Assembly (NCBI GenBank): GCA_037951105.1
Contig: JBAMJV010003066.1
Span: 248,001-312,000, forward strand
Direction: 5' to 3'
Origin: Echinarachnius parma
Taxonomy: Eukaryota > Echinodermata > Echinoidea > Clypeasteroida > Echinarachniidae
Length of the DNA: 64,000 nt
Below are positions 18,915 to 61,585 of the stretch, piece after piece (within the stretch, counting starts at the first letter, position 1; the number at the start of each line of letters is the position of its first letter). The notes under the pieces are model-generated. The model saw only the letters and a program-made list of their open reading frames with translations, was not told the origin of the DNA and did no database searches. Both the position numbers and the translations under genes were made by a program.

Positions 18915-21900
18915 CTGAAATACAGCAAGGGCATGAATGGGAATAATAATTTATAACTAATAGGAATAATTGTTTAAAAACCTTGATATAAAATTAAGAT
19001 AGGTCTTTGGCAATTGATTTCATACCCATCTACATACAGATGTAACTGAAATATCACACAATGACAAATATAGCAAATGTGAAAAGAAACCTTAATCTGA
19101 TTGGTATTTTTTAATGCTAGTGAAAACAAATCTTCATACTAGGATTTTCCCCCTTTTATGGGATGAACCATAAGGCAGATCAAAATTCTACCCAAAGGCC
19201 GACTGGATATTATTAGGGCTCAACAAAGTAAACAATAAATGATTATCCACTGAAAATGACAAATGGACGGATAAACAACCAAGTCATAGACAACTTTCTG
19301 TCATTCTGGGGAAAATTACAAGTACCATCAGTTTGAGGACAGATATGACGTTTGCATTTTTGTTAATCCCTGGATTGTATTTGTAAAGTGCATACCTGTA
19401 TTCTGAGCATCATGCGTCTGTTGATGGTCTCCAGCTGCCTCTGTCTCTCCGCCACCTGCTTGATCCGGTTCTGCTCCTTCTGCATCTTGCGGATGTAGTC
19501 CACCGACGACTTGAGGATGGTCCCCTTGTTCTGCCTCTGGTCACTGCAGGAAAAAAACACAATTGTACTTGTTTGAGGACAGATCTCAAAGCAGGCCTCA
19601 AAACCTAGTATCTTTTTAAGCAAATGTGCAGTATATGAGTTACATTTTGGAGGAGCAGGCACCTTTCAATGCATGACAAACTAGATGGATCTTCGATTGC
19701 GCGCAATCGAAAATTATGCCTCCGCTATCACGCGATTTTAATATCAAGCCCTTATTAACATGCACTGATTTAATTTTTTTTAATATTTTGAGTCCTGTGA
19801 CCTTGACCATATGACCCCAATCTTTGATGGCTCCCTAAAAAACATTCAGGTACCAAGTTTGATTGAAATCTGACATTTAGTTCTTGAGATTTTGGCATTA
19901 CAAGCTTTTTTGCATGTATAATGAGTCCCGTGACCTTGACCTCAACCTCATGACCCCAACATTTTACGGCTACGTTGACTCTTTATGATACATTCAGGTA
20001 CCGAGTTTGATTGAAATCTGACATTCAGTTCTTGAAATTTTGCCATTACAAGCCATTTTCGCATACATATTGAGTCCTTGAGACCTTGACCTTTGACCTC
20101 ATGACCCCCCAAATCTAATCAGATCAGTGGCACCCCGATATGTACACTCATAGCAAGTTTGAAATTGATCCGTCAACCGGTTCTTGAGATATCGCAAGAA
20201 CGAGGCATTTTTGCGCATACATCAAGTCCTGTGACCTTGACCTTTGACCTCATGACCCCTAAAATCTAATCAGATCATTGTCACCCCAACATGTACACTC
20301 ATACTAAGTTTGAAATTGATCCGTCAACCGGTTCTTGAGATATCGCGAGAACGAAAACGGGACGTACGTACGGACGGACGTACGTACGGACGTACGTACG
20401 GACGGACGGACGGACAACCCGAAAACATAATGCCTCCGGCCACTTCGTTGGCGGAGGCATAAAAACAATTGTATTTATTTGAGGATGGTCCCCTTGTTCT
20501 GCTACAGGTCACTGCATGACAACAAAATTTGTATTTGTTTGAGGTCAGATCTCCATATGAAATGGATCTGATGGAAAATGTGCATAGGAATTTGGAGCCA
20601 TTCAGCTCCACCAAATTAATAGAGAATGATAACTCGATGGCCTTTCCCTAACTTAGTTGTGCAAAGGTTAAAGTAACTTTATACAGGTCAATGTTCTTTC
20701 CCTAACTTGGTTGTGCAAAGGTTAAAGTAACTTTATACAGGTCAATGTTCTTTCCCTAACTTGGTTGTGCAAAGGTTAAAGGTACATTTTCCCCAACATA
20801 TAATCACCTTTGATTATGTTCTCTAAACGTTAAAACACAATTTCATGCAAATACGACCAACATTGGCCTTTTGAGCAAGGGATGAGCATCATTCAAAGTC
20901 ACTCGCTGTACGGGATAATCCCATTCATCGCGAACACCATGGAGGCTGCCATTGGTGTTTATGAAACTCGGATCGCTCTATGATGTGATGTCAAACCAGA
21001 ACTACTCTTTTTGTTGGCTCACGTTTGGCCTTGTGTTTGTGCACAAACCCGCGAGCTGCGAGAGCTAACAAAAAGAGGCGGAGCTTGTTTGTTCGGGTTT
21101 GACGTAGCATTTCGGCGCGAACAATTACAAATCCGGGTTTCAAAAAATATAATGGCAACCTCCACGCGATACGCTATACGCGATGAATGGGATTAGCCCA
21201 TACAGCGATTGACTTTGAATGATGCCCCTCCTTTGTTCAGAGGGCATATTTGCATGAAAATATGTTTTAATGTGTAGAGAAATTAATCAAAGGTAAATAG
21301 ATGATGGGGAAACTTTCCCTTCAAAGTAACTTACGGGTCAATGTTCTTTGGGATGAGTGTTCCTAGCTCCTTGATGCGGTCGTTGATGTTGAATCTTCTC
21401 CTTCGCTCAACTGTAAGATAATTATCAGGAGAAAACAAGATGATAATGGATATAAATTATAATAAAGTAAACACAAGGGATTTTGTGAATACAGGACAAG
21501 TAATTTTATAAACTACTTTTCATTTACCTGGTATTGCCAAGATATTAAGCAAAATAAACTACTTTCTTGTCTTGCAAGATATAAAGCAAAATACCTAATT
21601 AGACCCTGCTAACAAAGTTTAATCCCGTCAGCCTGAAAGATTGCCAAAGTGAGCCAAACATTGCCAAACATAGCAGCAACTAATTCATGCAAAGTGGATT
21701 CTTCATGTAAGTATTGAATTACATTTATTAGGAATAGGTTAAATAGAATACCTTGCCTCAAGGTTATAAGAAAAGGAACACGCATATATATTTTAATATC
21801 TTACTGAATCAGTCTATCGGATGCGAGTGGGGGCAAATTAATAAATAACATTAAAAAATCATGATCAAATCTGCCAGCAAGAACTCACTCATGTTGTGGT

Positions 21901-27900: not shown

Positions 27901-30900
27901 TTTAAGTAAATAATTTGTCTTGATGAACTATAGCCCCAAAACACATTTCAAAATGAAGAATCAGGGCTTTAAAATGTATTTTAACACACCAACAGATGAA
28001 GAGCATTCCACTCACCTCTTGTGATGTCGACATGGGGCTGTTTGGTACACTGGACTGGGAGCCATTGAGTCTCCTGCTGGAGGGTGACTGGGAGGAGGCT
28101 GCGGAGGACACCATGCCAACGAGATGGTGGTTGGGGTTGTTCTGGTTGGTCAGATACTGCTCCACCTGACGCCTCTGGTTCTGCTGCAGATGGAAGCGGG
28201 TTGGGTTCTCTAGTTTGGTGTTCACCTGTAGCATAGGAGTAAGACAGAGGAGAAGGGAAAATTAGCATTTTAAATGATGTAATAGGTAGATGGATACTGA
28301 ACTGGGAACTGGAGACAGAATATCAAATTTATGTGGGGTCAGTTCTGGTTGGTCAGGTACTGCTCCACCCTGATGCCTCTGGTTCTGCCTCAGATGGAAG
28401 CGGGTCAGGTTCTCAAGCTTAGTGTTCACCTAGAGACAACAAGAACTAGAAAACAGAATAGATCATAAGTGACAGACAGACCTGATAAGAAACAGAATGT
28501 TCTATTATACTTAATTTTATGGCTAGGTTTGTTTTGGTTGGACAGGTACGGCTCTACCCGACACCCCTGGTTCTGCTGCAGATGGAAGCGGGTTGGGTTC
28601 TCTAGCTTGGTGTTCACCTAAACACAATAAGAAAGGAAATGGAGACAGAAGCATTTCAAGAAATCATCTTCTAAGAACTAAAAAGGTGATTGATTTAAAC
28701 TGATCTCCAAGAAATGATGGAATAACACTTCTTATAGTCAAGTGGGCCTGTTCCATGTTTTAAGGAAGGTACATTTTCACCTGATGTATCTGATTCTGCA
28801 AACAGAAAGGAAGAAAACAGATAAGAACATTAGTTTATCATTCCATCTGATTGCATGTATTTTCATTATATGTGGAGTTGGTTTTGGTTTTACGGATACT
28901 GTTCCAACTGTTGTCTATAATAAAACGGCTCCGGTAAATTCAGTAACGTGATTGGCTAATTCCGATCATGTGGGCATTGATTACTTTTCACCAACTGCAC
29001 AACCGTGCAGAAACTGCGCAACCATCATGCCGATAGTGCGCAACCATCGTGCCGAAGGTGTGCAACCCGTGACGTCACAATGCTTGTTTACATGTAGTTT
29101 GTTTGTTTCTACCGAAGAAAAAACTTGCGAAAGAGATCGGGGAAAAGGATGGAAAATGACTCGTTTTGTAAACTATATATAAAGTTGTGAATAAATTATT
29201 GGCAGTTTCGTAAATAATATGGTATGTGGTTTGATATTGTTAAGTTTAGGAATGGAAATGCATACATCCCTTTGATAATTCTCACTTTTACGGACAATTT
29301 TTCGGCGATTTCGCATCGGACTGAATTTGGTCTGCTAAGCTGCAGAGTCAAATTCAGTCAGCGAGTAGTGATGATGAATGATGCAAATTTAAAATAAATT
29401 CCCACTCTAAAGAGTAGATTGTAGATTATAGTGGCAAGTCTGTTTCAAATAGTCCAGCGATCATAAACAATTCCGTGGTTGAGCTCGTTTTATAAAACAG
29501 ATAATACACGTTCTTAATTATCATGCATCAGTGTTAATGCAATGCACTCTCGGTTTTGTCAGATGGTGCGTATGTGCACTCGGCTTGCGCCTCGTGTGAT
29601 GCGTACATCTGACACAACCTCGAGTGCGTTGCATTTACAGAATGCACTCTAGAACGTGCATTATCTGTATATAATTCTACAGGACTATAGGAGTCATTGA
29701 ATGGAAGTGATTTTATATAATTACAGAAAATGTCCAGATTTCAGTATTTGTGAAGTGTATTCAAGATAAATAAAAGGACCGTTTTGAATCAGAAAGACAA
29801 AATGAGAATTAAAACGAAAGGAATAATAAGTTATAAGGTAAGTGAACACAGTTTCTATTCTAAAGAAAGATTAGAAGTAAACATATCCCGGATCATGTAC
29901 CATTGTTCAACCTTCAGAAAAATAAATTAATAGATAAGAATATTAAACTATCCAAAAAAAAACTTTCTCTTTCTAAAAGGAAAAACATTAAGAAACTCTT
30001 CAAATGGACTAAACATAAGGCCAATCATTTAATCAATCAGATGATATGGAAAAAAACACCAGGAAATGACAGGACAATTTGTATTTTTTTTTTTTTCCCT
30101 CTGATATGTATGAAAGGCGTTCATTCTGTTTCCGTTGATATTTGAAGATATTATTGGGGGAAATTTAATTTGTTTTTCTCAGAGGTGAACTCTTGTAAAT
30201 AGGGAGGTTAAATTTGTTTTTCTGTGATATGCAAGGGGAAAGTTTAATTTGTTTTTCTCAGAAGTGTACTGTAATATGACCAATTGCAGAAAAACAAAGA
30301 GGGAATTTAAAAGTGTTTTTTTTTTGTGATTTGCAAGGAGAGGTTTAATTTACTTTTTTTTCAGTGGTGTACAGTAAATGGGGATTTTTAAGTTTGTTTT
30401 TCTGTGATATGTCATATTAGAGTAAAAGTGAAAGGGGGAGTTTAAAGTTGTTTTTCTGTGATATGTCATGTCAGAGTGGAAGCGAAATTGGAGGCGTGAA
30501 GATGGACATGGGGAATATGCCAGGAAGCATGGTCTGTCTGCCACTGCGGTCCACCAAGGGCCTTCCTGTCCTCGTTAATACCCGCTACTCATTAACACTA
30601 GCCCCTACGGCAACCTGGACTGCCTTGTTTGAAAAATCCATGGAAATAATGATTTCAAAGACAAGAGGCTACTCGCAAGAGAGGTGGCTACAAGCCTTTT
30701 TAACAAGGATTACGAGTTTATGATTGCTCTCAGTAGACAAAAATGAAAATGGGATAGGTATGGCACTCATGTTAGTTCAGTTGTGCGGGGGTATGCCTAA
30801 CTGTTTGTAACTCAAGTAATACGGAAATGCAATCATCGGGAAAACTGACAGGGGCCCTGTAACATAACGATTCATGATTAATTGTACAATCAATTATCTG

Positions 30901-39900: not shown

Positions 39901-42900
39901 TTGAAAATAAATGATAGCAATTAAATCCGTCCTGCATGTCTCTCTCAGAGCAGTAGAACCTAGGGTTACTTCATAATTGTACAGTCTACAGCTAACTGGA
40001 TCACTCAAATGAGAATGTTTGTAGTGAAGGAAGCTTATATTAACACCCATGCAAATATCAGTCATTTGGAAATGCTGTTCCCTCATGATGAAAACAAACT
40101 ACTTAAATTATGACTTCATAAGAAACTAATGCAGAGGTTCAAATATTATATGAGTACTGCATTTGTCAGGTATTGGGTCTATTTCAATATCATGCAATGG
40201 TTGAATGTCGAACCTTGGGTTAACATAAGATACAAGCTCTTTGAATCCTCAAAAAAGTCTGGTCTTTGACTCGTGCAACACCAGTGATTTAGGTCTGCAG
40301 CATGCAATCTACATAATGCCCATAGAGATACAATAGATATAGCATAGTAATAAGAGTTAAACCTAATTGAATGGCAAGACTTAAAATGACAAACCTGTTG
40401 GTGAGAGTGTGGGCCCGGGCCGTAGTAGGGCAACATGACTGCTATTCCGCCATACATTCTGGACGTCTCAAGCTCTACCAGCGAGCCGAATAACGCACTA
40501 AAACACGCTTAACAATGGCGGCCTTCAAACAAGGTGAAAATTGAACGCAAGGGGGATGATTGTTGCTTTTCTGGTGACGATGAAAGATGATGATCATAGA
40601 TAGTGATGATGAAAATCAAAGAAAGAAATAGTTGATGACAAAAAAATCGAGAAGTTGAGATTTTTGAAGAGGAATGGATAAACCCCAGCTACCAGCGCCG
40701 GGTTGACACGATGAAATGAATCGTGACTCGAGTCAGCACGACAGGCCCGCCGAACAAACACTCGCTAGGCTAGTTGTTCCCAGTACGCACTCTGAGCCTG
40801 CGCAGTAGCCCCGGCCCAGGAATAGAATCGATGAGATCACTTTCCCTTTCCCAAATTGCCCACTGCCTGTTGTGCCTTCCCAACTCTCACTGTGTTGTTA
40901 TTGAATAGGGTCCTAGCAAAGGAACTAGGGCAAAAACTCACTTCCCCCCTCTCCCCTATCAACACTCTATGGTTGCCTAGTTTGCAACATTAATTAATCC
41001 TGCCTGGTAAATAAATGTTTTTAAAAAAAAAAATTTCTGCCACATCCTTCCTTCGTCTATCAAAATATGATCTTACACACAGCCCCCCCCCCCCCCCCCC
41101 CTGACCAAACTCAATCTATCTAAATCAAGTTTTCTTCTCTGATCAATCAATGCTCTTTCATGTTGTTTCCACATTTGTAACATTATAATTAGTAATACAG
41201 CTCAAATAGAAACAATTCATCAGTAACAGTAAAACATTACCCCTACTTTCTGCAACCCATGTTCTTCCCCCACCCCTAACCTGAAGCAAGTTCGCTAAAA
41301 TCATCAAAGTTTTCCGAAAATTCTGACATAACAAGACTCAGGGGCCTAGCCTGCTAGTTAGGAGCTATATTAAGCTTCAGAAGTTGATTGAATTATAAGG
41401 AAAACATCTACATTTATGTGTTAATCATGCCGTACCCAAACTGTTTGTGCTATATCAGCACAGGAGGCTGGGTCCAGAGGGTATCGTCAAATCACCAAGG
41501 ATACACTCACATAGAAACAGTTTCCCCATTGACTCTATGATGTTATTTGCCTGGACGGTTTGAATCCTGATTACGAGCAAACATCTAAACATAAATTTCA
41601 TATTACAGATAAGCAGGGAAAGTATAATTATCAAAATGCTTCAAACTTTTGAACTTTTAAGTTCTAAACATATAAAGTTATTTAGGGTAGCCTAAAAATA
41701 CATCTACAAAGAATATTGTGGAGACAAGTATCAATTAATTGCAGTTGACTAGTACAAATTATTCAAATATATTTAGCTTGTAACACACTTATGTGGAAGG
41801 CTGCTGGAAATTCTACATGAGAAAAATGCATAATTAATAAACATACATGTACTTCTTTTAATAATTTCTAGCGATAATGTATGTATGATTTCATAGCTGA
41901 ATTTAAATGTATCTTTGTTTGTTTTGCAAGTATAAAGCATATTTATTAATCCTCAAGCACACCAGTATTGATGTATAAAAGCCTTTCAATGGCTTCCTTT
42001 GATCCAACCACTAAGTAATATTAATTTATGTACATTTGCAATGAAACCTTGATATCCTTATATTGATTTACATTTTGTTTTTTTGTTATTATCTACCCTT
42101 AACATTAAACATTCTTTGTTAACTATTCTTAAAGAGTCTATAGTCTTAGAAAATGGAAAGAACTGGCACCAATGTGCTACATGATAAATCTCTGCTTCCT
42201 CTATAAAACAAATCAATGTGAGGACGAATTTAGAAATAAGACAGAATCGCTTGGGGTAGGATTTCTGGTTCATGAGCCCTACGACTTCCAGTCAGGAAGG
42301 ATCATTCCTCAATCCACAGTCATGCTCAAACATTAATGTTTAATGGTAAAAATAAAAACAAGAATCTTCAGTGGCGTAGCATGGACAAAATGATTGTGGG
42401 TGGGGGGGGAAGGCAGAGCCATGCCACTAGGGGGCAGGCTCATGTCTTTCTCTAATTTGTACCGTTTTTATAACCCTATTGTTTGTATTGTTTTTGTCAA
42501 TTTATTTGGGAGGGGAGTGGGTGGGGAGGAACATCCCTGATAGCAGACTGACGTCTTTATGACGTCTTAATTTGATCGTAAACTGGTAAACACGTCATAT
42601 GTCGTACAAACGATCAGAATACGACGTCATTATGACGTATTTTAAAGACCATTTTTGACATGATGACTTATGTTGTATAAAAGACGTAACATTGACGTCA
42701 TTATAACATCTTTAAACGACCATTTTTCCACTATTTATTTTTGTCGTAGGAAAGACGTAAAAACGATATCATTATAACGTCGTTCAAAGACCATTTTTCA
42801 GAATGTATTATTGTCGTGTAGAAGACATGATAACGACGTCTTTATAATGTCGTTTAAAGACCATTTTTGCCATACGGGTTTATTTCGTATCAATAACGCT

Positions 42901-45900
42901 ATAAAGACGTAAGTTTGACGTCTTTTCAAGAACAATTTTTTGCCATCATTTTTTGTCGTATGGACGCCCTTTTTACGACGTTAATGTGACGCATTTCAAA
43001 GACCATATTCCAATTGTTTTTTGTCGTATGGAAGGACGTAAAAATTACGTTAATATTACGTCATTTAAAGATCACTTTTTCAGTATTTATTTTTGTCGTA
43101 TAGAAGACGTAACAACGACGTCTTTATGATGTCTTTGAAAGACTAGTTTGCCATCATTTTTTGTCGTATGGACGACCACTTTACGACGTCATTTTGAAGT
43201 CTTTTCAAGACTAGTTTTTTGCCATCATTTTTTGTCGTATGGACGACCTTTTTACTACGTCATTTTGACGTCTTTCAAAGACCATTTTTTCACTATTTAT
43301 TTTGTCATAAACACGTCTAAAAATTGACGTCTTGATGATGTCTTTTACAGACTATTTTTGCCATTATGGTTTGTGTCGTACGACGACGTTAATACAACGT
43401 CATTATGATGTGATTTCAAGACTAGTTTTTGCCATCATTTATTGTCGTATGGACGACCTTTTTACAACGTCATTGTGACGTCTTTCAAAGACCATTTTTT
43501 CCAATGCTTTCTCGTCATATTAAGGATGTAAAAACGACGTCATTATCACGTCATTAAAAGATTATTTTTAAGTATTTATTTTGTAGTATGAAATACGTTA
43601 TAACGACGTCTTTATGATGTCTTTGAAAGTCCATTTTTGCAATTAAGGTTTGTGTCCTACGGACAACATTATTAAGACGTCATTTTGACGTCTTTTCAAG
43701 ACTATTGTTTGCCATCATTTTTTGTCGTATGGACGACCACTTTACGACGTCATATTGAAGTCTTTTCAAGACTAGTTTTTTTGCCATCATTTTTTGTCGT
43801 ATGGACGAACTTTTTACTACGTCATGTTGACGTCTTTCAAAGACCATTTTTTCACTATTTATTTTGTCATAAAAAAGTCTTAAAATTGACGTCTTCATGA
43901 TGTCTTTTAAAGACTATTTTTGCCATTATGGTTAGTGTCGTACGACGACGTTAATATGACGTCATTATGATGTGTTTTCAAGACTAGTTTTTGCCATCAT
44001 TTAATGTCGTATGGACCTTTTTACAACGTCATTGTGACGTCTTTCAAAGACCATTTTTCCAATGCTTTTTCGTCATATTAAGAATGTAAAAACGACGTCA
44101 TTATCACGTCATTAAAAGATAATTTTTAAGTATTTATTTTGTAGTATAAAAGGCTTTATAATGACGTCTTTATAATGTCTTTGAAAGGACCATTTTTGCC
44201 ATTAAGGTTTGTGTCGTACGCACGACAATATTAAGACGTCATTATGACGTCTTTACAAGACTAGTTTTTGCCATCATTTTTGTCGTATGAACGACCCCAT
44301 TACGTCATTGTGACGTCTTTTAAAAAACATTTTTTCCAATTATTTTTTGTCGTATAGACGACGTTATTACAACGTGATTATGACGTCTTTCAAAGACATT
44401 TAAACAATTATTTTTGGCGTATGGACGACCTTTTTATGACGTCAATAAGACGTCTTTATATCGTCTAAATGGCGTAATTTATGGTACAAATTGACGTCTT
44501 CAAGACGTCTTCAAGACGCCTTTTCGGAAAAAGATACGTCATTATCACGTCGAAATATGACGTCTATATGACGGTAAACGCGGGTGCAAAATCTTCACTT
44601 TTTGACGTGAATTTACGACGTCTTAAAGACGACGTACACAAGGTGAAAATCACGTCAAATCCGGACGTAAAAATCACGTCTTATATTGACCAATAAGACG
44701 TCTTTATGTCGTCTTAATAACGTAATTAATGGAACAAATTGAAGACTTAAAGACGTCATAAAGACGCCTTTTCGAATAAAAATACGTCATTATCACGTCA
44801 AAATATGACGTCTATATCACGGTAAACGCGGGTGCAAAATCTTCACTTTTTGACGTGAATTTACGACGTCTTAAAGACGACGTACATAAGGTGGAAATGA
44901 CGTCAAATCCAGACGTAAAAATCACGTCTTATATTGACCAATAAGACGTCTTTATGTCGTCTAAATGGCGTAATTTATGTTACAAATTGACGTCTTCAAG
45001 ACGTCATAAAGACGCCTTTTCGGATAAAAATACGTCATTATCACGTCAAAATATGACGTCTATATGACGGTAAACGCGGGTGCAAAATCTTCACTTTTTG
45101 ACGTGAATTTAAGACGTCTTTAAGACGACGTGCACGACGAAAAACGACGTATATTTGACGTCATTTTTACCAGTGTTTGCTATCAGGGATTCATTATTGG
45201 CTGTAGGCCATCTTGTTGGATCATGTTGGAACTGTGTATGACACTAAATACAATATTTATGTGGGAGTGGTGCATATTTATTAGTGCGTCAATTATTTGC
45301 TTTCTTCGTGAAAAATATATCAAATCATAACACGCTTTCCCAGATGCAGTTAATCTTAAGCCCTAATTTCCTATCTAGGTATGCACCAGATTGCACAATT
45401 TCAAATTCATAAATGCAAAATCTTTCTTACCGTGGGAGGGGGATACCCCCTCCCAAACCCTCCCCCTCCCTCCCTGCCCCAGCCCTCAGGCGCTTCGCTC
45501 CATCGGGACTCATTATTGGCAGTGTGTTGTTGGATCATACATAATGTTGCATAATTATGGTTTATGTTGTGTTGTGTGTGTGTGTTTTGGGGTACATATT
45601 TATTAGTGTGTCAATTATTTGTTTTCTACGTGAAAAATATATTCAAACTTTCTGGTCGATCAAATCATATCACGCTTTCCCAAATACAGCCGAATTTCCT
45701 ATCTAGGTATGCATCAGATTGCACAATTTCAAGTCCAAATATGCAAAAACTCCCTACCGTGGGAGGGGGGACACCCCCTCCCACACCCTCCCCCCGCTCA
45801 GTCGCTTCGCTCCCTCGCAATGTCTCACTCTCACCTCTGGCTCAAACTTGGCAACCCAGAGTGTGGTTGGGCATGAGCCCCTATACACACCAAAATTGTG

Positions 45901-48900
45901 AGCCCCCTTGGGGTTTTGCCCAACCCCCCCAAAATCCAAAACTGCTTCCGGCGCGCCTGCCTCTGACCTAATAAAACAAATATGCAATTTAGCTGATTAT
46001 CTGTATAATGCTAATTCTACAACAAATTTTCAATGTTGCCAAGGTAACATTGCTAAATTATCTAAAGAAACCTTTAAGCACATGAGAAAAAACAAACAAA
46101 TATTGGACTGTCTACAACCTATTATCGCCTACAGGAATAATTCATCATCGATTATAACCGATAGTATCAAAGTGGAAATAACCCAATGATGCCTGGGTGG
46201 TAATATTGCTAGATTTCCTAAAGAATCCCTTTAGAACATGAGTAAAAACAAACAAACAAATATTGGACTTATGAACGTCTACAACATAATAGGATCGCCT
46301 ACAGGAATAATTCATGATCGATTATAAACGATCGTATCAAAGTGGAAATAACCCAATGATCCCAAGGTGGTAATATTGCTAAATTTTCTAAAGAAACCTT
46401 TTAGAACATGAATAACAAAAGAAAATACAGTAGGACTTATGATTAACGTCTTCAGGTCTAATGGATACAGGATTCATTCATGATCGATTATAAACAATCG
46501 CATTAGAGTGCAAAGTAAAATTCCAATTTTTATAACTATTTACATTGAAAACATTGTTATTATGATCTTGTTTTTGCAGATATTAAAACTAATATAAATA
46601 CCAACCTGTTTTTAATATTTTCAACATGATTTGCAAATTAATTATTTAGGCATCAACTCTTTGAAATACTAAACAGTCAATACTAACCATTTAAATCTCA
46701 CATACTAAGAAGCGGGATATATATACGGAACCTATACGACAACTGATCAGTAAGGTGTTAGACGTAGGTTATAGGATAGGATAGGATAGGTTTAGGATTT
46801 AGGAATAGGATAGGATTATGTGTTACATGTTATAAAACTGTTGACTGTGGAATATACTACAAGACATAACCATCTCAATTTTTAAATTATTAATAATGTA
46901 AAAATCGCTTCAAAATATGACGTCAATACGTCTTTTCGTCATAAAAAGACGTCGTTAGCACGTCAAAATGTCGTGAAACGCGGGTGCAAAATCTTCATTT
47001 TTTGACGTGAGTTTATGACGTCTTTAAGACGACGTACACGACGTGAAAATCACGTCAAATCAATACGTAAAAATCACGTCTTATATTGACCAATAAGACG
47101 TCTTTATGTCGTCTTAATAACGTAATTAATGGTACAAATTGACGACTTAAAGACGTCATAAAGACGCCTTTTCGGAAAAAAATACGTCAATATCACGTCA
47201 AAATATGACGTCGATATCACGGTAAACGCGGGTGCAAAATCTTCACTTTTTGACGTTAATTTACGACGTCTTAAAGACGACGTACACAAGGTGAAAATCA
47301 CGTCAAATCCAGACGTAAAAATCACGTCTTATTTTGACCAATACGACGTCTTTATGTCGTCTTAATAACGTAATTAATGGTACAAATTGACGACTTAAAG
47401 ACGTCATAAAGACGCCTTTTCAGAAAAAAATACGTCAATATCACGTCAAAATATGACGTCGATATCACGGTAAACGCGGGTGCAAAATCTTCACTTTTTG
47501 ACGTTAATTTAAGACGTCGTTAAGACGACGTACCCGACGTAAAATGACGTAAATTTGACGTAATTTTTACCAGTGTCTGCTATCAGGGATGTGCCCCTGT
47601 ATATATGCCACTGAAAGTTATGCATGTTCTCTGTCACACAAAACAGTTTCTAAACTGAAGAATGGTCTGCCATAATGTATTTCATGACCAAGATTGCTAC
47701 CAAATGAAAAATATTGCTTCAGGATAAAAGTGTATATTGTCTATGAACATTAGATAATTTACATATATGCTTTATAAATTAAAATTGTTTATTCTGTTCA
47801 GAGTATTTTGATGCAAACTTTTAGGTAGAGGCATATCATTATGCCTAATACTATAAGCTGGAAGAACTAGACATGAAAACGTTGTGCAAAATGTACTGGG
47901 TAAAAGTCCTATAGTGTTCCATTTTTGGAACTAGTTATTTCACAAATTCTCCACAAAACCCACCAGAAACTATCTCGGGCTCAGTCCTCAACCAGTTAAC
48001 AGATTTGGGAGAGCAGTTGGTATCACTGGCATTCATGAATCACCACTCATGTTTCACAGTCAATGTCAAATGGCGAGTGAATGTTCATGGATAATGTTCA
48101 CCCATGCCCATATATCCAAGGGGGACGGGACCTCGCAAGGGAGAGAGCGTGCCAGGCTTGTCATGTTAAAGGCATATATGCGTGGGTTATTAGACGCGTG
48201 GATCCATCTTGCGCACTTTTACGCACGGTACGTAATCCCCATTGGCTCAGTTATAAGTAGCGATCGCAAACTGTCCCGGCTTCCGAATACCCAAGTAAAA
48301 AATGCATACAAAATAGTCGCGTTCGGAATGTTTGTACTATTCGAATGGAGATCCATCAGAGATGTTTACGAGCGAAAATATCACGTAACACGCTTAACCG
48401 CAAATACTTCAAAGCGCCGCTGTTTGATGTCTTAGGTGACAGCGTGAGAAATTCTTGCTGCATGCAATTTCATAAGAAGGCCCGTGTTCAGATATTTCGA
48501 AGCACCGCTCTTCGATCGATCCAACACATATCGTGAGTTTACCTCGAGATATTACGGTGGAGTCGAGTTGGAATTTGCTGACTACCCTTTATAACCCACG
48601 CATATATGCCTTTAAGACAACTTTACTCGTACGTCAGAAACACTCTCATTAGTCATGATCAACACAGGAAAACAATAATGCCCAAGTTTTCCACCTCATT
48701 CATCCTCATACCCCCTCGTTTGATCCTGACAGCAGAGATTATACGCCATTCTAATGTAAATTCACTGAGACATCCAGGATCCTGGCAAGGGGGTTCAGTA
48801 AAAGTTCAATCCTATTTCTTTTTTAGGAACATGGCATCACTGACATCTATTTTATCAAAGATCCTTTAATGAAAACGAAATATGATGTGTCAAAACATTG

Positions 48901-57900: not shown

Positions 57901-60211
57901 CAAAATGTCTCGCAAATGAGCCCATTTCAACTTTCACTTACATGCATTATCCATGTAACCTAGACAAGTACATACGTTAAGCAGATAAAAAAACTACATG
58001 TAGCTAGCTAGAAACAGCATTAAAAGTTCTTGCTTGTTCAACTATAAAGTAGAGATTGATCTTCACCAAAATCTCTATAAAGGTGTCCCTCTTATTTCTG
58101 ACATTTTAGGTCCAGTCAGTCATTTATCTGTGAATAAAGTAATCATAGCATGAAATCACATAGAGATAATTTTTACCATTTTACCAGTAACACACAAAAC
58201 CCTGCAGGACTCCATTGTCACTGTCTTGTTATAGTCAGCAGAGGGCTCACTTCCTTTCCAGTCAGAATGCGCCTTTGTGTCTTTGTGTCTTGCTATCCTG
58301 CAATCTTAATGAATAGGCAGAAAATTCCAATAGGGAAATTCCATACAGGAAAAAATAGAATCATGTGAGACATGAATATACAAAAAAAGTTAGCAGTACT
58401 GTTAAATTGAATGGTCATAATACAGAATGATTTTATATCATTGTGAAGACAAAATTAAAAGGCAAGTGATGTAATAATATTGAGAGATTACATCAGAATT
58501 ATTGTTCAATATAAATTATACAATATCAATGGCTCTAACTGTCAGAGGGCATAAATGTGCCTGCATGAATTTATGATGACTTTTTTTAGTATATTTTACA
58601 AAAGTAATTCATGCTAATGTATTGTTTGTTTTGTCAAAAGAAATGCACACTTTCCTGTGACACCTACTTGGGATCATAGCCAGTTTGTACATGATAGCTG
58701 GCAATGGGCCAGCTTCCTTAACACTGCAGTCAATTAGTTGTCACTAAATTAAATATTATTGATGGCGTATGTGACAAGTACAATATTCTTTTAAATTAAT
58801 ATGGAATGCAAATTAGATACAACACATCTTCATCTGTAGTGAAGCTTGCTGCATGTGGTCTTTGTTTGTATCACCAAAAAAGGGATTAATAGCAGAAGAT
58901 GAAACTGGCTTTTAACCCGTTCCCTACAAGATATTGAAATCCCCATAGACTTCGTACATAGCCTAACCGGTTGCTGTAGGCAAGGGGTTAATAGGGTAAG
59001 AGGAAACATTTGGTCTGCCCCCCTTTTATTTTGTTTGAAAGGGGAGAATAGGCACTTTAAACCATTATAATATGTATGTATATAAAAGTTGAGTGACATC
59101 AAAGGATGAATTCAGGGATTGAAAAAGTGTGGGCGTTTCTAACTTCTTTGACCTGGCCCCCCCCCCCCCCCCCCCTCCCATCCCCCACCAAAATAAATAG
59201 CTGTTATCAGATATACATGTAGGTAATCCTATATGAAGTATGAACATTTCCTTTCTGAAAGGTCATCCCACAGGAAAATTTCTCCCAACCTAGGGAGAGC
59301 CATGCTTTGCATTAGGGGCAATATCACAGCCCCAGGGGACTGCCATTACATCATTGGCCCCAAAATAAACTAGTTTTTGTCCGCCCACGGATCATGTGGT
59401 CGCGGTCATGAGATAACCGCAAAAAGAAACAAACAACTTTATAAATTATTGCCAGCCAATTTTGTTTTCAAACTTCCTTTTCAAGTAGTGCCCTTTTAAA
59501 TCGCAATGATTCCAATCGGCTTTGTTCATTTATATCGTACACCAGAGGGTATAGGATGCTCCATCTTTGGAGCTATTTCCAGCAACTGCCCATGTTCTAC
59601 ATTACAAATGGGACAAACTGTTGAAACTGGTCTGAAATCCTTATAGGAATATACTTATCCCCTACTTTTGAAAATCTTTTTAAAGAATTCAGACAGTTTG
59701 TAATTGGAACTTGGTAGGTTATTCCCCCTAGATATGGATGAGTTTTAAGGTGGATTACCTTAATTTTGTTATTCGTGTACATGTGTATTGTCCAAGTCAC
59801 CATGGAAATAACAAATAATCCAGGAGGGAACATTTAAAATCATCATTAATAGGCCCCAGGGTAATGTGAGAAGCTAGTGACAACCAACAGATTTTGAAGT
59901 GAAGATTTACCTTCAAGACTTCTCTGGGCAGAGACGACATCTCCGGCACCGGGCTGAGTTTGTTGGCTTGTGGGATGTCCATGGCAACGGGAGCACTGGC
60001 CGACAGCAGGGGGTTACTAGTGTTCTCCAGCAGGTGCATGAAGGAGGCGCTGGAGGCACTGGCTGCGTCTCCCCCTACTCCTGCTCCTACAACCATCGGC
60101 CTGTCCTCCTTCTCCATCTCCTGGTGGAGCTGCTGCCGCATCAGCTCCTGCCGGAAGGTGGTCCGCATCGACATGGCGCCGGGGGAGAACTCCGTCCCGG
60201 GTCGAAGAGAG
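18405..60211 (-). CDS. MITF: MITF/TFE family bHLH-leucine-zipper transcription factor
   Basis: Single invertebrate-type MITF/TFEB/TFE3/TFEC gene. MiT/TFE proteins bind E-boxes (CACGTG, TCATGTG) as dimers and control lysosome biogenesis, pigment and nutrient-response genes. Seven shared or long-form exons plus an alternative first exon join with consistent phases. From the internal start the short product is 433 residues; the long form has at least 512 plus an unseen N terminus. In order it shows: a Rag-binding-type LMRQQ helix; ENPTRFH and [14 protein letters not shown] (equivalent of the ERK/mTORC1 serine TFEB S142/MITF S73); an acidic activation helix [20 protein letters not shown] (14-3-3/mTORC1 serine equivalent to TFEB S211); VKSE (sumoylation consensus); basic region and HLH; zipper; polyglutamine; and a [12 protein letters not shown] tail. 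I am confident of the family; the symbol stands for the whole MiT group. Confidence 0.93.
18697..18771 (-). repeat. CAG/CAA repeat coding for polyglutamine in MITF
   Basis: Mixed CAG and CAA codons give runs of 5, 4 and 12 glutamines broken by A and L. Mixed codons suggest relative stability compared with a pure CAG run. Confidence 0.9.
19396..19543 (-). CDS. MITF: MITF exon: helix 2 and leucine zipper
   Basis: Acceptor TTTCCTGCAG|TGACC and donor ATACAG|GTATGC; one base plus 49 codons. It encodes [19 protein letters not shown] (human DMRWNKGTILKASVDYIRK), then the zipper with [19 protein letters not shown] and LRIQ. A partial copy with its acceptor lies at 20467-20520. Confidence 0.96.
19681..20465 (-). 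mobile_element. Helitron/Helentron-like element, copy 3, in MITF intron
   Basis: Minus orientation. The 5' hairpin lies at about 20430-20461 (GCCTCCGGCCAC, GTTGGCGGAGGC as read on plus) and the (CCGT/ACGT)n tract at 20360-20415. Tandem units follow. The 3' palindrome CGATTGCGCGCAATCG is at 19694-19709, with terminal CTAG at 19681-19684. Same family as 3464-4399 and 9300-10214. Confidence 0.7.
20467..20555 (-). pseudogene. partial duplicate of MITF exon 19396-19543 and its acceptor
   Basis: Plus-strand TTGAGGATGGTCCCCTTGTT, then CTGCTACAGGTCACTGCATG and TTGTATTTGTTTGAGG-CAGATCTC, repeats 19510-19590. Only the first part of the exon is present. The acceptor reads CATGCAG|TGACC and is still usable in principle. 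It abuts the Helitron-like element ending at 20465. Confidence 0.75.
20641..20800. repeat. tandem ~61-base units carrying a piece of the MITF exon 21335-21410 boundary
   Basis: Three starts of CTTTCCCTAACTTGGTTGTG and two complete AAAGTAACTTTATACAGGTC-AATGTTC segments. The latter resembles the exon/intron junction AAAGTAACTTACGGGTC-AATGTTC at 21325-21346 (donor lost by the TATA insertion). Together with the fold-back element at 20777-21327 this places copies of the exon edge on both sides of that element. Confidence 0.7.
20777..21327. mobile_element. fold-back MITE ending beside the MITF bHLH exon
   Basis: Left arm TTAAAGGTACATTTTCCCC ... ATGAGCATCATTCAAAGTCA then CGCTGTACGGGATAATCCCA. Right arm TGGGATTAGCCCATACAGCG then TGACTTTGAATGATGCCCCT ... 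GGGGAAACTTTCCCTTCAA. Arms are about 165 bases around a CpG-rich centre. Its right end lies fewer than 10 bases from the donor of exon 21335-21410. Confidence 0.72.
21335..21410 (-). CDS. MITF: MITF exon: basic region and helix 1
   Basis: Acceptor ATCTTACAG|TTGAGC and donor TTGACCC|GTAAGT; 76 bases, the same length I recall for the vertebrate exon. It encodes [20 protein letters not shown], virtually identical to human MITF. With the preceding exon it completes H-N-M-I-E-R-R-R-R, holding the E-box contact residues His, Glu and Arg. Confidence 0.97.
21889..22078 (-). CDS. MITF: MITF exon: 14-3-3 site, SUMO site, start of basic region
   Basis: Acceptor CACCCTGTAG|ATGCCC and donor AACATGA|GTGAGT; 63 codons plus one base. 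Visible motifs are SNSCPPDL (serine equivalent to TFEB S211, which binds 14-3-3 when phosphorylated by mTORC1), VKSE (psi-K-x-E sumoylation consensus, as in human IKRE), and [11 protein letters not shown] leading into the basic region. The first codon happens to be ATG, but phase 0 continuity with the preceding exon argues it is internal. Confidence 0.95.
22252..22740 (-). repeat. four decayed tandem copies of the MITF acidic exon
   Basis: Units at about 22252-22375, 22380-22500, 22505-22622 and 22626-22740. Each has a damaged version of GTTTGTTGGGTTCCTGTAGG and ACTGAGTGAAG, followed by TTTCCTAGTGTAG-AAAATTTCAGGAATAAT. The intron flank is duplicated too. None keeps an open exon with both splice sites. 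Confidence 0.75.
22797..22901 (-). CDS. MITF: MITF exon: acidic activation helix
   Basis: Acceptor TTCCCTCAG|GTGGAT and donor AACACG|GTCAGT; 35 codons, phase 0 both ends. It encodes [18 protein letters not shown], the counterpart of the human acidic activation segment VIDDIISLESSYNEE that binds p300/CBP, and ends AMPNT like human QMANT. It is the first transcribed unit of a five-unit tandem array with a period of about 120 bases. Confidence 0.93.
22905..24775. other. MITF intron, no feature beyond simple tracts
   Basis: A+T-rich intron with a C run at 23719-23732. No exon-like conservation seen. Confidence 0.55.
24779..25600. repeat. tandem duplications in MITF intron
   Basis: A unit of about 350 bases (AATAAATATGAAAAGTTTTC ... 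TGGGATCAAGGGGA) occurs at 24779-25090 and 25130-25435. A second unit of about 95 bases (AACATTGACATCTATTATCT ... AAATTTCCCCT) occurs at 25438-25503 and 25530-25600. Confidence 0.8.
25601..26370. other. MITF intron, nothing recognised
   Basis: No ORF or repeat signal. Confidence 0.5.
26376..26830. repeat. G-run and tandem ~140-base units
   Basis: A G run at about 26376-26394, then repeated ATCTGACCCATAGTAAAACC, then CACAGAGAGGATAGG, GGATATGGATGAGGTGTGG and AACAAAGGGATGGGAGCACA, at about 26500 and 26645. Confidence 0.7.
26998..27300. mobile_element. truncated TTAA MITE, TTAAAGTGATCC family
   Basis: Left end TTAAAGTGATCCATTATTAC, then TTGAGACTTCAATCATAC, CACCAATAATCATTG and TTTCATAGAAAAAGAACACT. 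This parallels 63063-63240 and 61590-61670. No matching right end found. Confidence 0.6.
27725..27790 (-). pseudogene. fragment of MITF exon 28016-28225 (3' half)
   Basis: Plus-strand GTTTGGCACACCAGTTGCAA, then GGAAGCCATTGAGTCTC, parallels 28038-28080 (GTTTGGTACACTGGACTGGG, AGCCATTGAGTCTCC). It is short and has no open frame. Confidence 0.65.
28016..28225 (-). CDS. MITF: MITF exon: ENPT element and S73/S142-type site
   Basis: Acceptor ATGCTACAG|GTGAAC and donor CAAGAG|GTGAGT; 70 codons, phase 0 at both ends. [20 protein letters not shown] parallels human [20 protein letters not shown], followed by QVEQYL. Near the end, VPNSPMSTS keeps the proline-directed serine phosphorylated by ERK or mTORC1 in vertebrate MITF/TFEB. 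Decayed copies of this exon lie on both sides (27725-27790, 28334-28429, 28525-28617). Confidence 0.92.
28334..28429 (-). pseudogene. decayed copy 1 of MITF exon 28016-28225 (5' half)
   Basis: Minus-strand VNTKLEN-TRFHL is recognisable behind an AG acceptor (CTCTAG|GTGAAC), but a one-base insertion near 28374 shifts the frame and no donor remains. Confidence 0.8.
28525..28617 (-). pseudogene. copy 2 of MITF exon 28016-28225 (5' half), frame still open
   Basis: Minus-strand [17 protein letters not shown], then [12 protein letters not shown], behind an acceptor TGTTTAG|GTGAAC. The frame is intact for 31 codons and runs on into intron to a stop after 62. There is no donor at the parental position, so as an exon it would give a truncated product. 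Confidence 0.75.
28880..29690. repeat. CpG-rich intronic repeats including a ~97-base hairpin
   Basis: 28975-29090 holds repeated TGCGCAACCATC units and a perfect TGACGTCA (29070-29077). 29537-29633 folds back: TGCAATGCACTCTCGGTTTT and AACCTCGAGTGCGTTGCA arms around TGCGTATGTGCACTCGG. Wider inverted flanks ACAGATAATACACGTTCT and AGAACGTGCATTATCTGT suggest a MITE of about 29490-29670. Confidence 0.65.
29691..30855. repeat. MITF intron with repeats of TTTAATTTGTTTTTCT
   Basis: Between 30150 and 30470 the phrase TTTAA-TTGTTTTTCTGTGA, then TATG-CA, recurs about every 50-70 bases. The remainder is plain A+T-rich intron. A GC-richer patch at 30480-30620 has no recognised identity. Confidence 0.55.
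31200..31460. other. GC-richer intronic patch
   Basis: Stands out from the A+T-rich intron. It has three copies of a CAGGCCGGCCATACACAGG-like unit (31335-31385). No coding potential seen. Possible regulatory sequence or repeat. Confidence 0.35.
32195..32660. promoter_or_regulatory. candidate intronic cis-regulatory module
   Basis: GC-richer island with two TAATCCCGCC motifs (about 32363 and 32507; TAATCC is the Otx/bicoid-type core) and an AGGTCATCAAGACCTTG inverted motif (32487-32503) resembling nuclear receptor half-sites. No splice-bounded ORF was recognised. Function is inferred only from composition and motif matches. Confidence 0.3.
32744..32820 (-). repeat. tRNA-derived SINE head or tRNA pseudogene
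   Basis: Minus strand CTCTAGCTCAGTGATTAAAC matches a tRNA D-arm/A box, ACTGG...CCAGA forms an anticodon-type stem, and GGTTGGATTCC (plus 32756-32766) is a B box with one change. The acceptor arms do not pair, so this is not a functional tRNA. Confidence 0.7.
32830..34130. other. MITF intron; GC-richer block at 33835-34090
   Basis: Mostly A+T-rich. The block at 33835-34090 has higher GC and an open plus-strand frame, but no recognisable protein family and no plausible splice partners. It may be conserved noncoding sequence. Confidence 0.35.
34150..35110. repeat. six or so degenerate tandem units of ~150-165 bases
   Basis: Recurring order: GGTACAAAGAGAAGTTCT, ACTCTACTCAAACA-GAA, GGGCAA-AAG-GG, AGTATTTGGGCAAGCAGG, GGGTAACTAAGGATG, CTGGAAGGAGGG, GTGATGTGAGCAAATCCA. 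Starts near 34150, 34400, 34560, 34700, 34850 and 34985; a further partial unit is at 35305-35400. Confidence 0.75.
35120..35285. mobile_element. hairpin MITE rich in TTGCAAT
   Basis: TGGCAGAAAGAGTTGCAA at the left and TTGCAACTCTTTCTGCCA at the right form an 18-base perfect inverted repeat, continuing imperfectly. The interior carries many TTGCAAT/ATTGCAA motifs. A related copy is at about 49335-49500. Confidence 0.78.
36146..36463. mobile_element. fold-back MITE (TTTCACAAAGATTCTAAG), copy 1
   Basis: Left GGTGTGTTTCACAAAGATTC then TAAGGTGAACTTAACTC; right GAATTAAGTTCAACTTTATA then GAATCTTTG-AATACACCCCC. Long imperfect inverted repeat. Second copy at 57052-57348. Confidence 0.75.
36470..37555. 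other. MITF intron, nothing recognised
   Basis: No coding or strong repeat signal. TTAACCC-type ends near 37390 and 37475 hint at a small degenerate element. Confidence 0.45.
37575..38230. repeat. tandem ~240-base units with long G runs
   Basis: Repeated TTTCCAACACCAGGTTTCAC, ACATTTGCTTAATACATTTC, CTAAAATAAA and GGGGTGTGAGGTCA at about 37800 and 38000, with weaker copies at each end. G runs occur at 37580-37597, 37778-37790 and 38131-38195. The last is a run of GGGGGT/GGGGGCT blocks able to form stacked G-quadruplexes on the plus strand. Confidence 0.75.
38500..38610. repeat. two ~67-base direct copies
   Basis: GAAGATAGTAGCCAGGGTAA, then TTCAGATGCATCCTCAAGAA, recurs as GAAAGTAGCTAGGGATAATA, then ACGGATGCATCCTTGAGAA. 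Confidence 0.75.
38620..40390. other. MITF intron downstream of the internal first exon
   Basis: A+T-rich. A 156-codon minus-strand frame at 39412-39882 is unlike any family I know, lacks splice context and is likely chance. A CCCATTTAAG / CTAAACGGGTTAA pair at 39310-39403 may be a small element. Confidence 0.45.
40395..40457 (-). CDS. MITF: MITF alternative first coding exon (M-like short isoform)
   Basis: ATG at 40457-40455 opens 21 codons ([15 protein letters not shown]...HQQ) that end in phase 0 at CAACAG|GTTTGT. They join directly to the common exon starting VNTKLENPT. This mirrors vertebrate MITF-M, whose 11-residue exon 1M ending HYQ joins VQTHLENPT. The product lacks the Rag-binding region and would be 433 residues. 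A CpG-containing stretch lies just upstream. No cDNA evidence is available here, so use of the exon is inferred from phase, position and donor. Confidence 0.72.
40458..40860 (-). promoter_or_regulatory. likely internal MITF promoter
   Basis: An isolated CpG-richer stretch immediately upstream of the short first exon. It holds a YY1-like AACAATGGCGGCC (40511-40523), a palindromic TGACTCGAGTCA (40724-40735) and an NRF1-like CCTGCGCAGTAG (about 40798-40809). No TATA box is evident. Transcription would run on the minus strand. Start site not determined. Confidence 0.5.
40880..42365. other. MITF intron upstream of the internal promoter
   Basis: A+T-rich with a C run at 41084-41101. No exon recognised. 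Confidence 0.5.
42560..44450. repeat. ~70-base ACGTC monomers, ~560-base higher-order unit
   Basis: Monomers pattern as GACGACC-TTTTACGACGTCA, then TT-TGACGTCTTTCAAAGACCA, then TTTTTGCCATCATTTTTTGT-CGTATG. The distinctive string GCCATCATTTTTTGTCGTAT plus CCACTTTACGACGTC recurs at 43150 and 43711, with a related GCCATCATTTTTGTCGTATG at 44270. This gives a higher-order period of 559-561 bases. Confidence 0.8.
44455..45175. repeat. ~245-base ACGTC repeats, first block
   Basis: Units at 44455, 44696 and 44942 contain ATAAGACGTCTTTATGTCGT, then AAGACGCCTTTTCG, ACGGTAAACGCGGGTGCAAA, ATCTTCACTTTTTGACGTGA and AATCACGTCTTATATTGACC. Confidence 0.85.
45190..45815. repeat. ~315-base direct duplication inside the 5-kb element
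   Basis: CATTATTGGC ... CATATTTATTAGTGCGTCAA ... CTATCTAGGTATGCACCAGA, then TTGCACAATTTCAA and CTTACCGTGGGAGGGGG, occurs at about 45192-45500 and again at 45509-45800. The short ORFs here (45391-45987) are repeat-derived. Confidence 0.75.
46030..46510. repeat. three tandem ~170-base units
   Basis: GGTAACATTGCTAAATTATC, then TAAAGAAACCTTT, CAAACAAATATTGGACT, ATCGCCTACAGGAATAATTC and GATCGATTATAA-CGATAG recur from about 46045, 46200 and 46370. Confidence 0.8.
46765..46820. repeat. GGATA microsatellite-like run
   Basis: Repeats of ATAGG/GGATAGGAT. Confidence 0.8.
46915..47575. repeat. ~245-base ACGTC repeats, second block
   Basis: Same units as 44455-45175 (two full copies at 47095 and 47341, one partial before), ending at the right terminal repeat. 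Confidence 0.85.
47620..48160. other. MITF intron, nothing recognised
   Basis: A+T-rich, no feature. Confidence 0.5.
48166..48615. mobile_element. TTAA MITE with 25-base perfect terminal repeats
   Basis: Left end begins TTAAAGGCATATATGCGTGG and continues GTTAT. The right end is its exact complement, ending GCCTTTAA at 48615, for 25 paired bases including TTAA. The interior is CpG-rich (GATCCATCTTGCGCAC, CGGTACGTAATCCCC). The incidental ORF over it is not a gene. Confidence 0.85.
48620..51890. other. MITF intron; one hairpin repeat at 49335-49500
   Basis: Long A+T-rich intron. 49335-49500 carries AAGTTGCATAATTGCAAGTC ... CTGACTTACAATTCATTGCA, a relative of the TTGCAAT MITE at 35120-35285. 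Nothing else recognised. Confidence 0.5.
52235..52700. repeat. tandem ~190-base units
   Basis: GGACAGCAGGACCAGGAAAT, then TAGACAGCAAATGACATCAC and AGTATTAGATAA-TGG, recurs at about 52258, 52457 and (partial) 52661. Confidence 0.78.
52800..54370. other. MITF intron, nothing recognised
   Basis: A+T-rich, no gene-like or strong repeat signal. Confidence 0.5.
54390..55400. repeat. pyrimidine-rich tandem ~230-base units carrying GGATTATCC
   Basis: Recurring AATTTCAGGATTATCCTCCC, then CATCCCATCCTCTC (54462, 54669), CCAGCCTCATGAAGAGA-AA and GAGAGAAAGGGTCAGTCAG (54545, 54762, weaker at 54885 and 55100). GGATTA is an Otx-type core; its repetition may be incidental to the tandem array. Confidence 0.7.
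55430..55660. promoter_or_regulatory. candidate enhancer or promoter with CRE and RFX X-box
   Basis: GC-richer patch containing a perfect CRE TGACGTCA (55519-55526), a CRE half-site ATGACGTAG near 55625, and an X-box GTTGCTACGGTGAC (55602-55615) that fits GTNRCC-N2-RGYAAC on the minus strand. No ORF. Regulatory role inferred from motifs alone. Confidence 0.35.
55690..57050. other. MITF intron with G/C homopolymer-rich block at 56690-56860
   Basis: Mostly A+T-rich. 56700-56770 and 56832-56848 hold long G and C runs; ORFs across them are low complexity. Confidence 0.5.
57052..57348. mobile_element. fold-back MITE (TTTCACAAAGATTCTAAG), copy 2
   Basis: GGGGTGTTTCACAAAGATTC, then TAAGTTGAACTTAACTC, at the left; GACTTAAGTTCAACTTTGAA, then TCTTTGTGAAACAACCCC, at the right. 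Same family as 36146-36463. Confidence 0.8.
57350..59900. other. MITF intron next to the upstream exon
   Basis: A+T-rich, with a G run at 57770-57780 and a C run at 59157-59175. A TTAACCCGTTCCCTAC / GTAGGCAAGGGGTTAA pair at 58913-58990 may be a small hairpin element. No exon recognised. Confidence 0.5.
59911..60211 (-). CDS. MITF: MITF long-form exon: Rag-binding-type N-terminal region
   Basis: Acceptor TTTCTTTGACAG|C and donor CTTGAAG|GTAAAT; phase 0 at its 3' end. It contains [20 protein letters not shown], aligned with the TSRILLRQQLMREQ element of MITF-A and the N terminus of TFEB, which binds active RagC/D at lysosomes. It ends SLPREVLK, like the PMEVLK of human exon 1B. Relative to TFEB, R4 and L11 equivalents are kept while S3 becomes M and Q10 becomes E. 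It starts one base inside a split codon, so at least one more 5' exon lies outside the window. Confidence 0.88.
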
Positions 60212-61585
60212 CTGTCAAAGAAAATGTCCAATTTAGAAAGTGAGACAAACAGAGTAGGAAATACATTTCGATGAGACAAAACAAAATTCTTCTCAAAAGC
60301 AATGTCTTTGTTCAATATCCATACTGATACTAATTTTTTTCCTCTGGATTTATTGGCTCCAGTAGTAAATTCCATCCAGGTTTCAAGAAAACAACTTGCA
60401 AATAGGAGCATAGCAAATGAGTTCATTACAAGATGAAGAAATGATATAAAAATATAAATTCACCACTGCTTATTTTGCTACATGTATGGTTTTTTTTATC
60501 AGCCTATCCTGGGAAGAAAAAAAATCAGCATTGGACTCTGTACTCCATGAGCCATCTCCATCCTAGGATGCGGAGAATTGGAATCTTATTTCCCCTAAAG
60601 AGGGGAGTACTTACAGTTTTGTAGTGCCAGAAGTTAATCTGGCACAACCACCTATAAACTACTAAGCTCCCCTGACAGGTAAATAAAACTGGAAGATGGG
60701 TTTATAACAATGATAGGAATGCCATGATGTTCATAATGCGCATATCATGCATGTCTCTATTACAATGTACTATCTCAATATGATAACATGTGTCATCACA
60801 TATAATGAAAGACTCATAGCCTGCATAGAACATCAATGCATGCCAAAATGCAGGGGCCTCGTCAAGAATTTTCTTTCAGATAACTTATTAACTCAAGAAA
60901 ACTACAATAAATCAAATATACCTCAGGCTCATTCCCTGCAAAAACATCAGAAAATCACTCAAATCACTGACAAAATCCTCTTCCTTTCCCCACTTCATTC
61001 TGATCCGATAACACGTTTCCATGATCAGGAATTTAAGGTACAACCGCACACACTTAATTATTCCTGAATAAAAACATTCCTGAATAAAATATTTCTGAAT
61101 GAAACAAATGTATGAAATACTCCACAGTTCCAAGCAACAAACTAAAACTAGATTCCATGTTCGTTTCGTTTTTAAATAGGGTATTTCCACAATTTTGTTT
61201 TGAAAACAGAATTGGAGCAAGAGATTTTTGTTTCTCCTCAAGGAAAGTCGTACCTGTTTAGACCAGATGCTCCAGAAACAATTTGCATTGCACGTTTTGT
61301 AATATATATATTGTGATATTTTATACCAGCAGAAAAGAGGCCATAAAGTGAGAGTATTTATATTACCAAGGAGACACAATACATATACATGCGTATCATT
61401 TCCAATGTAAACAGTTGTCAACACTGATCATTCTTGTTTTTTGAAATCTGAAACATACTTTGTAACTATGACTATTTCAATTAAATATTTTTGAATATGG
61501 TTATCATTAATAAAATGATTGCATAGAAACCACACAAAACTACACATTTTTGCAAAAGTGAAATTTGAAATGTAAGTCATATATA
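60212..61585. other. MITF upstream intron or flank
   Basis: No further exon recognised. The 170-codon minus-strand frame at 60912-61424 is A+T-driven with no family resemblance. Confidence 0.5.

Follow-up and report, generated by a model that had tools for sequence, protein, structure and literature searches.

A candidate internal promoter with a short first coding exon, in the layout of vertebrate MITF-M, in an echinoderm MITF gene

The MITF gene described here, an echinoderm (probably sea-urchin) member of the MiT/TFE family, probably contains an internal promoter, followed by a short coding first exon, that works like that of vertebrate MITF-M. The gene lies on the minus strand of the window, the 64,000-nucleotide stretch of DNA that was analysed (C3065:248001-312000 of a 1.2-Gb animal genome). 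Its features are given below in gene order, with positions in the window unless the contig is named.

C3065:329257-329435, about 17 kb beyond the window: exon A, first coding exon of the long form, encoding MSESGVDLDFDL...YEIKSQSAA
60211-59911, minus strand: exon B of the long form, encoding a Rag-docking-type region through LPREVLK, with a phase-2 acceptor and a phase-0 donor (AAG|gtaaat)
40860-40458, minus strand: candidate 5' leader and core promoter
40416-40829, no strand assigned: CpG patch, spanning the putative internal promoter together with the 5' leader and the candidate coding exon, CpG o/e 0.98 over 40395-40830
40457-40395, minus strand: candidate first coding exon of the short form, 21 codons, donor CAG|gtttgt, phase 0
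28225-28016, minus strand: common exon C, from VNTKLENPT to STSQE, with a CAG acceptor, joined by the long and the short form
22901-22797, minus strand: exon D, acidic region
22078-21889, minus strand: exon E, SNSCPPDL through KKDNHNM
21410-21335, minus strand: exon F, basic region
19543-19396, minus strand: exon G, helix-loop-helix and zipper
18914-18404, minus strand: exon H, C-terminus with poly-Q and DPLLS...SSRRSS, matching DUF3371

The encoded protein has a bHLH-zipper of the MITF type (Pfam HLH, 55.5 bits), and a 420-aa query, consisting of the long form minus most of exon H, matched MITF (4ati, E 4.2e-41) and TFEB (7ux2, E 3.4e-53) in the PDB, with the alignment to the TFEB chain stopping short of the Rag-docking helix. 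Only one locus of the MITF type was found in the assembly with a common-exon query. The long form has a coding capacity of 572 aa and the short form of 433 aa, and all exons join without a stop. The long form appears to carry an N-terminal Rag-docking-type region, as judged from its match to PF15951, which starts at profile position 1 and runs to 136 (67.9 bits, cut-off 27). A tblastn search with a piece of MITF-A also matched this region (E 4.75e-5), and a Pfam scan gave a sub-threshold match to MITF_TFEB_C_3_N (E 0.049) in 59797-60456, inside which exon B lies. The short form matches PF15951 at profile positions 58-136 only (51.7 bits, cut-off 27), with positions 1-57 lost. It retains the NSPM and SNSCPPDL stretches, both of which align with TFEB and are presumed to be phosphorylation and 14-3-3 sites.

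Exon A was traced through four stretches beyond the window and a tblastn search with vertebrate pieces, in which its match was weak on its own (E 1.0). It was identified because MSESGVDLDFDL...YEIKSQSAA resembles the vertebrate exon, and because it has an ATG, CpG-rich DNA upstream, and a donor in phase 2 that matches the acceptor of exon B.

The candidate short exon sits in the 31.7-kb intron separating exon B from common exon C, between the Rag-docking exon and common exon 2, and joins the latter in phase. Its start ATG at 40457 has an A at -3, a second in-frame ATG follows at 40436, and its last exonic base, 40395, joins 28225 in frame and in phase 0. The first-pass annotation had described an ATG at 40457, 21 codons, a phase-0 donor and an exact join to the VNTKLENPT exon, and these frames and phases were all confirmed. 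Provided that the exon is used, the putative short protein would lack the Rag-docking region (PF15951). The donor is weak, with T at +3 and +4, and scores 1.62 on a donor matrix on which the donors of the common exon, exon B and exon A score 7.47, 4.66 and 1.9. It is the better of just two donors that score at least 1 within 40350-40900.

An open reading frame followed by such a donor is not beyond chance. The pattern counted as chance was an ATG with at least 14 codons and a phase-0 donor of equal or better score, and in 28226-59911 the sense strand has nine occurrences, one of them probably the true donor of exon B where the range ends, and the antisense strand has 11. Eight of the intron candidates have a purine at -3 (2 sense, 6 antisense). 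A genome sample of 175,616 bases (5,000 of them N), drawn as 19 stretches from spaced contigs, held purine-bearing matches at a rate of 0.19 per kb on each strand, and of the 30 CpG patches in the sample 6 contain one on either strand; the candidate's own patch scores as having none because the patch window begins 6 bases inside the exon. The open reading frame and donor were therefore rejected as significant by themselves, given the 9 sense and 11 antisense occurrences and the 6 sampled patches. What stands out is that they coincide with the CpG patch: counted over the 400 bp preceding the donor, the short exon has 22 CpG and the other seven purine-bearing candidates have 3 to 16.

The first-pass annotation had placed a CpG-containing patch upstream of the exon. 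The upstream CpGs are indeed dense, and since they remain so from 40416 to 40829 the patch takes in the exon as well as the DNA before it. Its edges are sharp, with o/e values of 0.22 and 0.37 in the flanks and the nearest outside CpGs at 40272 and 41054. In unmasked DNA the o/e is 0.75 upstream of the gene and 1.17 at the distal promoter, and through the gene it runs, in order, 0.47 (intron A-B), 0.32 (exon B to the short exon), 0.47 (the short exon to exon C) and 0.48. Downstream of the gene it is 0.47, as low as in the gene body, so CpG depletion is no neat mark of the MITF gene alone. The patch was compared with others in a set of 36 CpG patches, made up of the 30 from the sampled stretches and 6 from the 104-kb locus; its flank o/e of 0.34 is the lowest of all, the sampled range being 0.53-1.5. 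Among 1,198 low-repeat 400-bp windows of the 104-kb locus 1.6 % are as rich, and the patch ranks third-equal among separated peaks. A genome search with the 466 bp of 40395-40860 gave, apart from the query's own locus, one match of 43 bp, which lies in CAT-rich sequence; this search skips very common words, and the evidence that the patch is single-copy is good if incomplete. The sequence supports a promoter-like character for the patch, and its pattern is as expected for an unmethylated internal promoter in DNA that is presumably methylated.

The next richest patches of the intron are at 46.65-47.05 kb (20 CpG, among tandem arrays) and at 28.95-29.35 kb (19 CpG). The latter was rejected as a second internal promoter, as it lies inside a dispersed repeat, and the very CpG-rich stretches at 42.6-47.6 kb were set aside as promoters, being mostly tandem arrays. 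An equally CpG-rich low-repeat stretch is found at 77.3-78.3 kb (C3065:325301-326300; 49 CpG, o/e 1.28). It falls within intron A-B, lies 3-4 kb inside the distal promoter, and may be a repeat or a further promoter.

The candidate leader is poor in start codons, having one ATG vs 5.4 expected from shuffles (P 0.009 over 403 bp; P 0.058 and 0.236 in two shorter stretches). The distal promoter region of the gene has no such depletion, with 19 ATGs vs 16 expected. The sole leader ATG, at 40597, opens a 40-codon upstream frame that closes before the start codon and would count if transcription begins above it. An NRF1-half-like site is found at 40804 and a YY1-like site at 40455, and no TATA match occurs in 40458-40860. 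A 12-bp palindrome, TGACTCGAGTCA, is located at 40735-40724.

The following arrangement is proposed. The long form would be driven through exons A and B and then the common exons by a distal, CpG-rich promoter some 17 kb outside the window, and the patch at 40.4-40.83 kb would be a second, internal promoter of the same gene. The short transcript would start upstream of 40457, encode 21 residues of its own and have its splice junction between 40395 and 28225. Its 433-aa product would keep the activation, phosphorylation-type, DNA-binding and zipper regions and be without the Rag-docking region. The analogy with vertebrate MITF-M suggests that this protein would avoid lysosomal recruitment, with a more nuclear location and weaker control by nutrients. 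The arrangement thus predicts the transcription, splicing and translation of the short form, its localisation and tissue, and the use of both promoters. If the short exon is used, it would give an invertebrate deuterostome the vertebrate-like choice between a lysosome-tied and a lysosome-free MITF.

Vertebrate MITF-M, as described in PMC7470386, has a short exon 1M that is spliced straight to exon 2 and skips exon 1B1b, which carries the region binding active Rag GTPases, and MITF-M is constitutively nuclear. The candidate would resemble it in having a short coding first exon joined onto exon 2 and in keeping the DNA-binding and zipper regions. It differs in having 21 codons, in contrast to the 11 of exon 1M, and in a peptide similarity that is unconvincing.

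An internal start is already a known kind of architecture in this family, because the Caenorhabditis elegans gene hlh-30 has one: according to PMC3685541, its transcripts a, f and g use an alternative first exon within a long intron, which is rated well supported and was tested with reporters, and several isoform promoters are drawn in PMC8354637. The likeness to the present gene is that of an invertebrate MiT/TFE gene with an intronic alternative first exon; a point of difference is that the two hlh-30 promoters drove one shared, broad nuclear pattern (PMC3685541). An invertebrate MiT/TFE gene can thus use an intronic start, which does not make it the same start. TFE3-L and TFE3-S are comparable in that alternative transcription starts lead to differing MiT/TFE N-termini (PMC12852735). 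The excerpts of PMC7815692, PMC9363479 and PMC3626940 make no mention of an MITF-M-type short form in an invertebrate, and in literature mostly outside subscription papers, partly in excerpt, hlh-30 was the only invertebrate MiT/TFE gene found with an alternative first exon. In sea urchins, Pl-Mitf of Paracentrotus lividus is reported in pigment cells and skeletogenic mesenchyme, and the excerpts of PMC9363479 that report this describe no forms differing in first exon. With Mitf reported in these pigment and skeletogenic cells, sea-urchin RNA data offer a direct test of whether the MITF-M-type form arose within vertebrates, is an older device or evolved by convergence.

Several other explanations of the locus were weighed. 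Any unmethylated element would retain CpG, so the patch may be a regulatory element without a promoter, such as an enhancer or insulator free of germline methylation, beside an accidental open reading frame; the missing TATA match and the frequency of such frames and donors in sampled CpG patches (6 of 30) agree with this. It is nevertheless rather unlikely, since a promoter is better suggested by a patch that ends beside a phase-0 donor, is poor in upstream ATGs and has an NRF1-like site. The patch could also be a real internal promoter whose first exon is non-coding or uses another donor, with translation from the common exon, for example from the Met of HHLVGM, or whose transcript is non-coding or antisense. 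The weakness of the donor and the commonness of the frame and donor by chance point this way, as does the patch itself being the better-supported part; against it stand the rank of CAG|gtttgt as the better of the two donors across 40350-40900 and the depletion of sense-strand ATGs, which favours a sense 5' leader and a used ATG, and the explanation was judged unlikely. That the short exon is a cassette exon and not a first exon is very improbable. Two AG sites (first exonic base 40472 or 40466) do keep the phase-0 frame of exon B open with a length divisible by 3, but both are GAG sites that lack a pyrimidine tract. From six more AG sites, located upstream as far as 40570, the phase of exon B runs into a stop, and the CpG patch would be left unexplained.

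The favoured reading, in which an internal promoter serves a short coding exon, has a sub-case in which this exon is the orthologue of vertebrate exon 1M and the promoter is older than the vertebrates. With respect to the Rag-docking exon and to exon 2 it is placed as exon 1M is (PMC7470386), and the similarity to the 1M peptide gave shuffle P values of 0.014 and 0.028. The same score is, however, reached by 3 of the 111 ATG-to-donor peptides of the locus, including the candidate's own second-Met peptide, and on this ground the similarity was not taken as evidence of homology; the phase is set by the shared acceptor and therefore adds no support. Orthology with exon 1M was judged quite improbable. 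The first-pass annotation had interpreted the exon as MITF-M-like with an architecture that may predate vertebrates: the layout, splice point, phase and promoter-like sequence bear out the likeness, and the step to common descent is unsupported, because the 21-residue peptide is no closer to the 1M peptide than a few chance peptides are. It is just as doubtful that a long, nutrient-controlled and a short, Rag-blind MITF were already made from two promoters in the ancestor of echinoderms and vertebrates, with MITF-M as heir of an old mesenchymal or pigment-cell promoter.

Several repeats lie within the gene. On the minus strand, the 5' half of exon C is repeated in two decayed copies lying in tandem, at 28617-28520 and 28429-28332. 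Both keep intact TAG|GTGAAC acceptors and are 88 % and 65 % identical to the exon over 100 nt, ungapped; the first keeps its frame over 35 codons (74 % identical) and the second is frameshifted. The donors that follow them are weak (1.62 and 1.8) and the copies are therefore probably skipped, though their acceptors could serve as decoys for either first exon. The dispersed repeat at 28916-29671 (about 755 bp) has at least 73 matches in the genome including itself, counted with the best 40 of 1969 candidates scored, and part of it also matches the reverse strand. In the intron between exon B and the short exon, 42621-47554 holds tandem arrays whose units measure about 70 bp and 248 bp and whose CpG o/e is very high. 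Between exons F and G, at about 20300-20510 on the minus strand, the translation is repeat-rich.

The mitochondrial contig of the assembly, C14600, points to an echinoderm, probably an echinoid. It holds a ring of about 15.8 kb, since two tRNAs recur about 15,808 bases apart. The genes, identified by eye on the basis of translations and tRNA calls, follow the order of echinoids and holothuroids. TGA is read within COX1, and one AAA codon of this gene (in MNNMSFW) is at a site that is Asn in other animals, this being a single codon. Between tRNA-Thr and tRNA-Pro lies a control region of about 146 bp; this gap, which includes a run of 25 C, favours Echinoidea.
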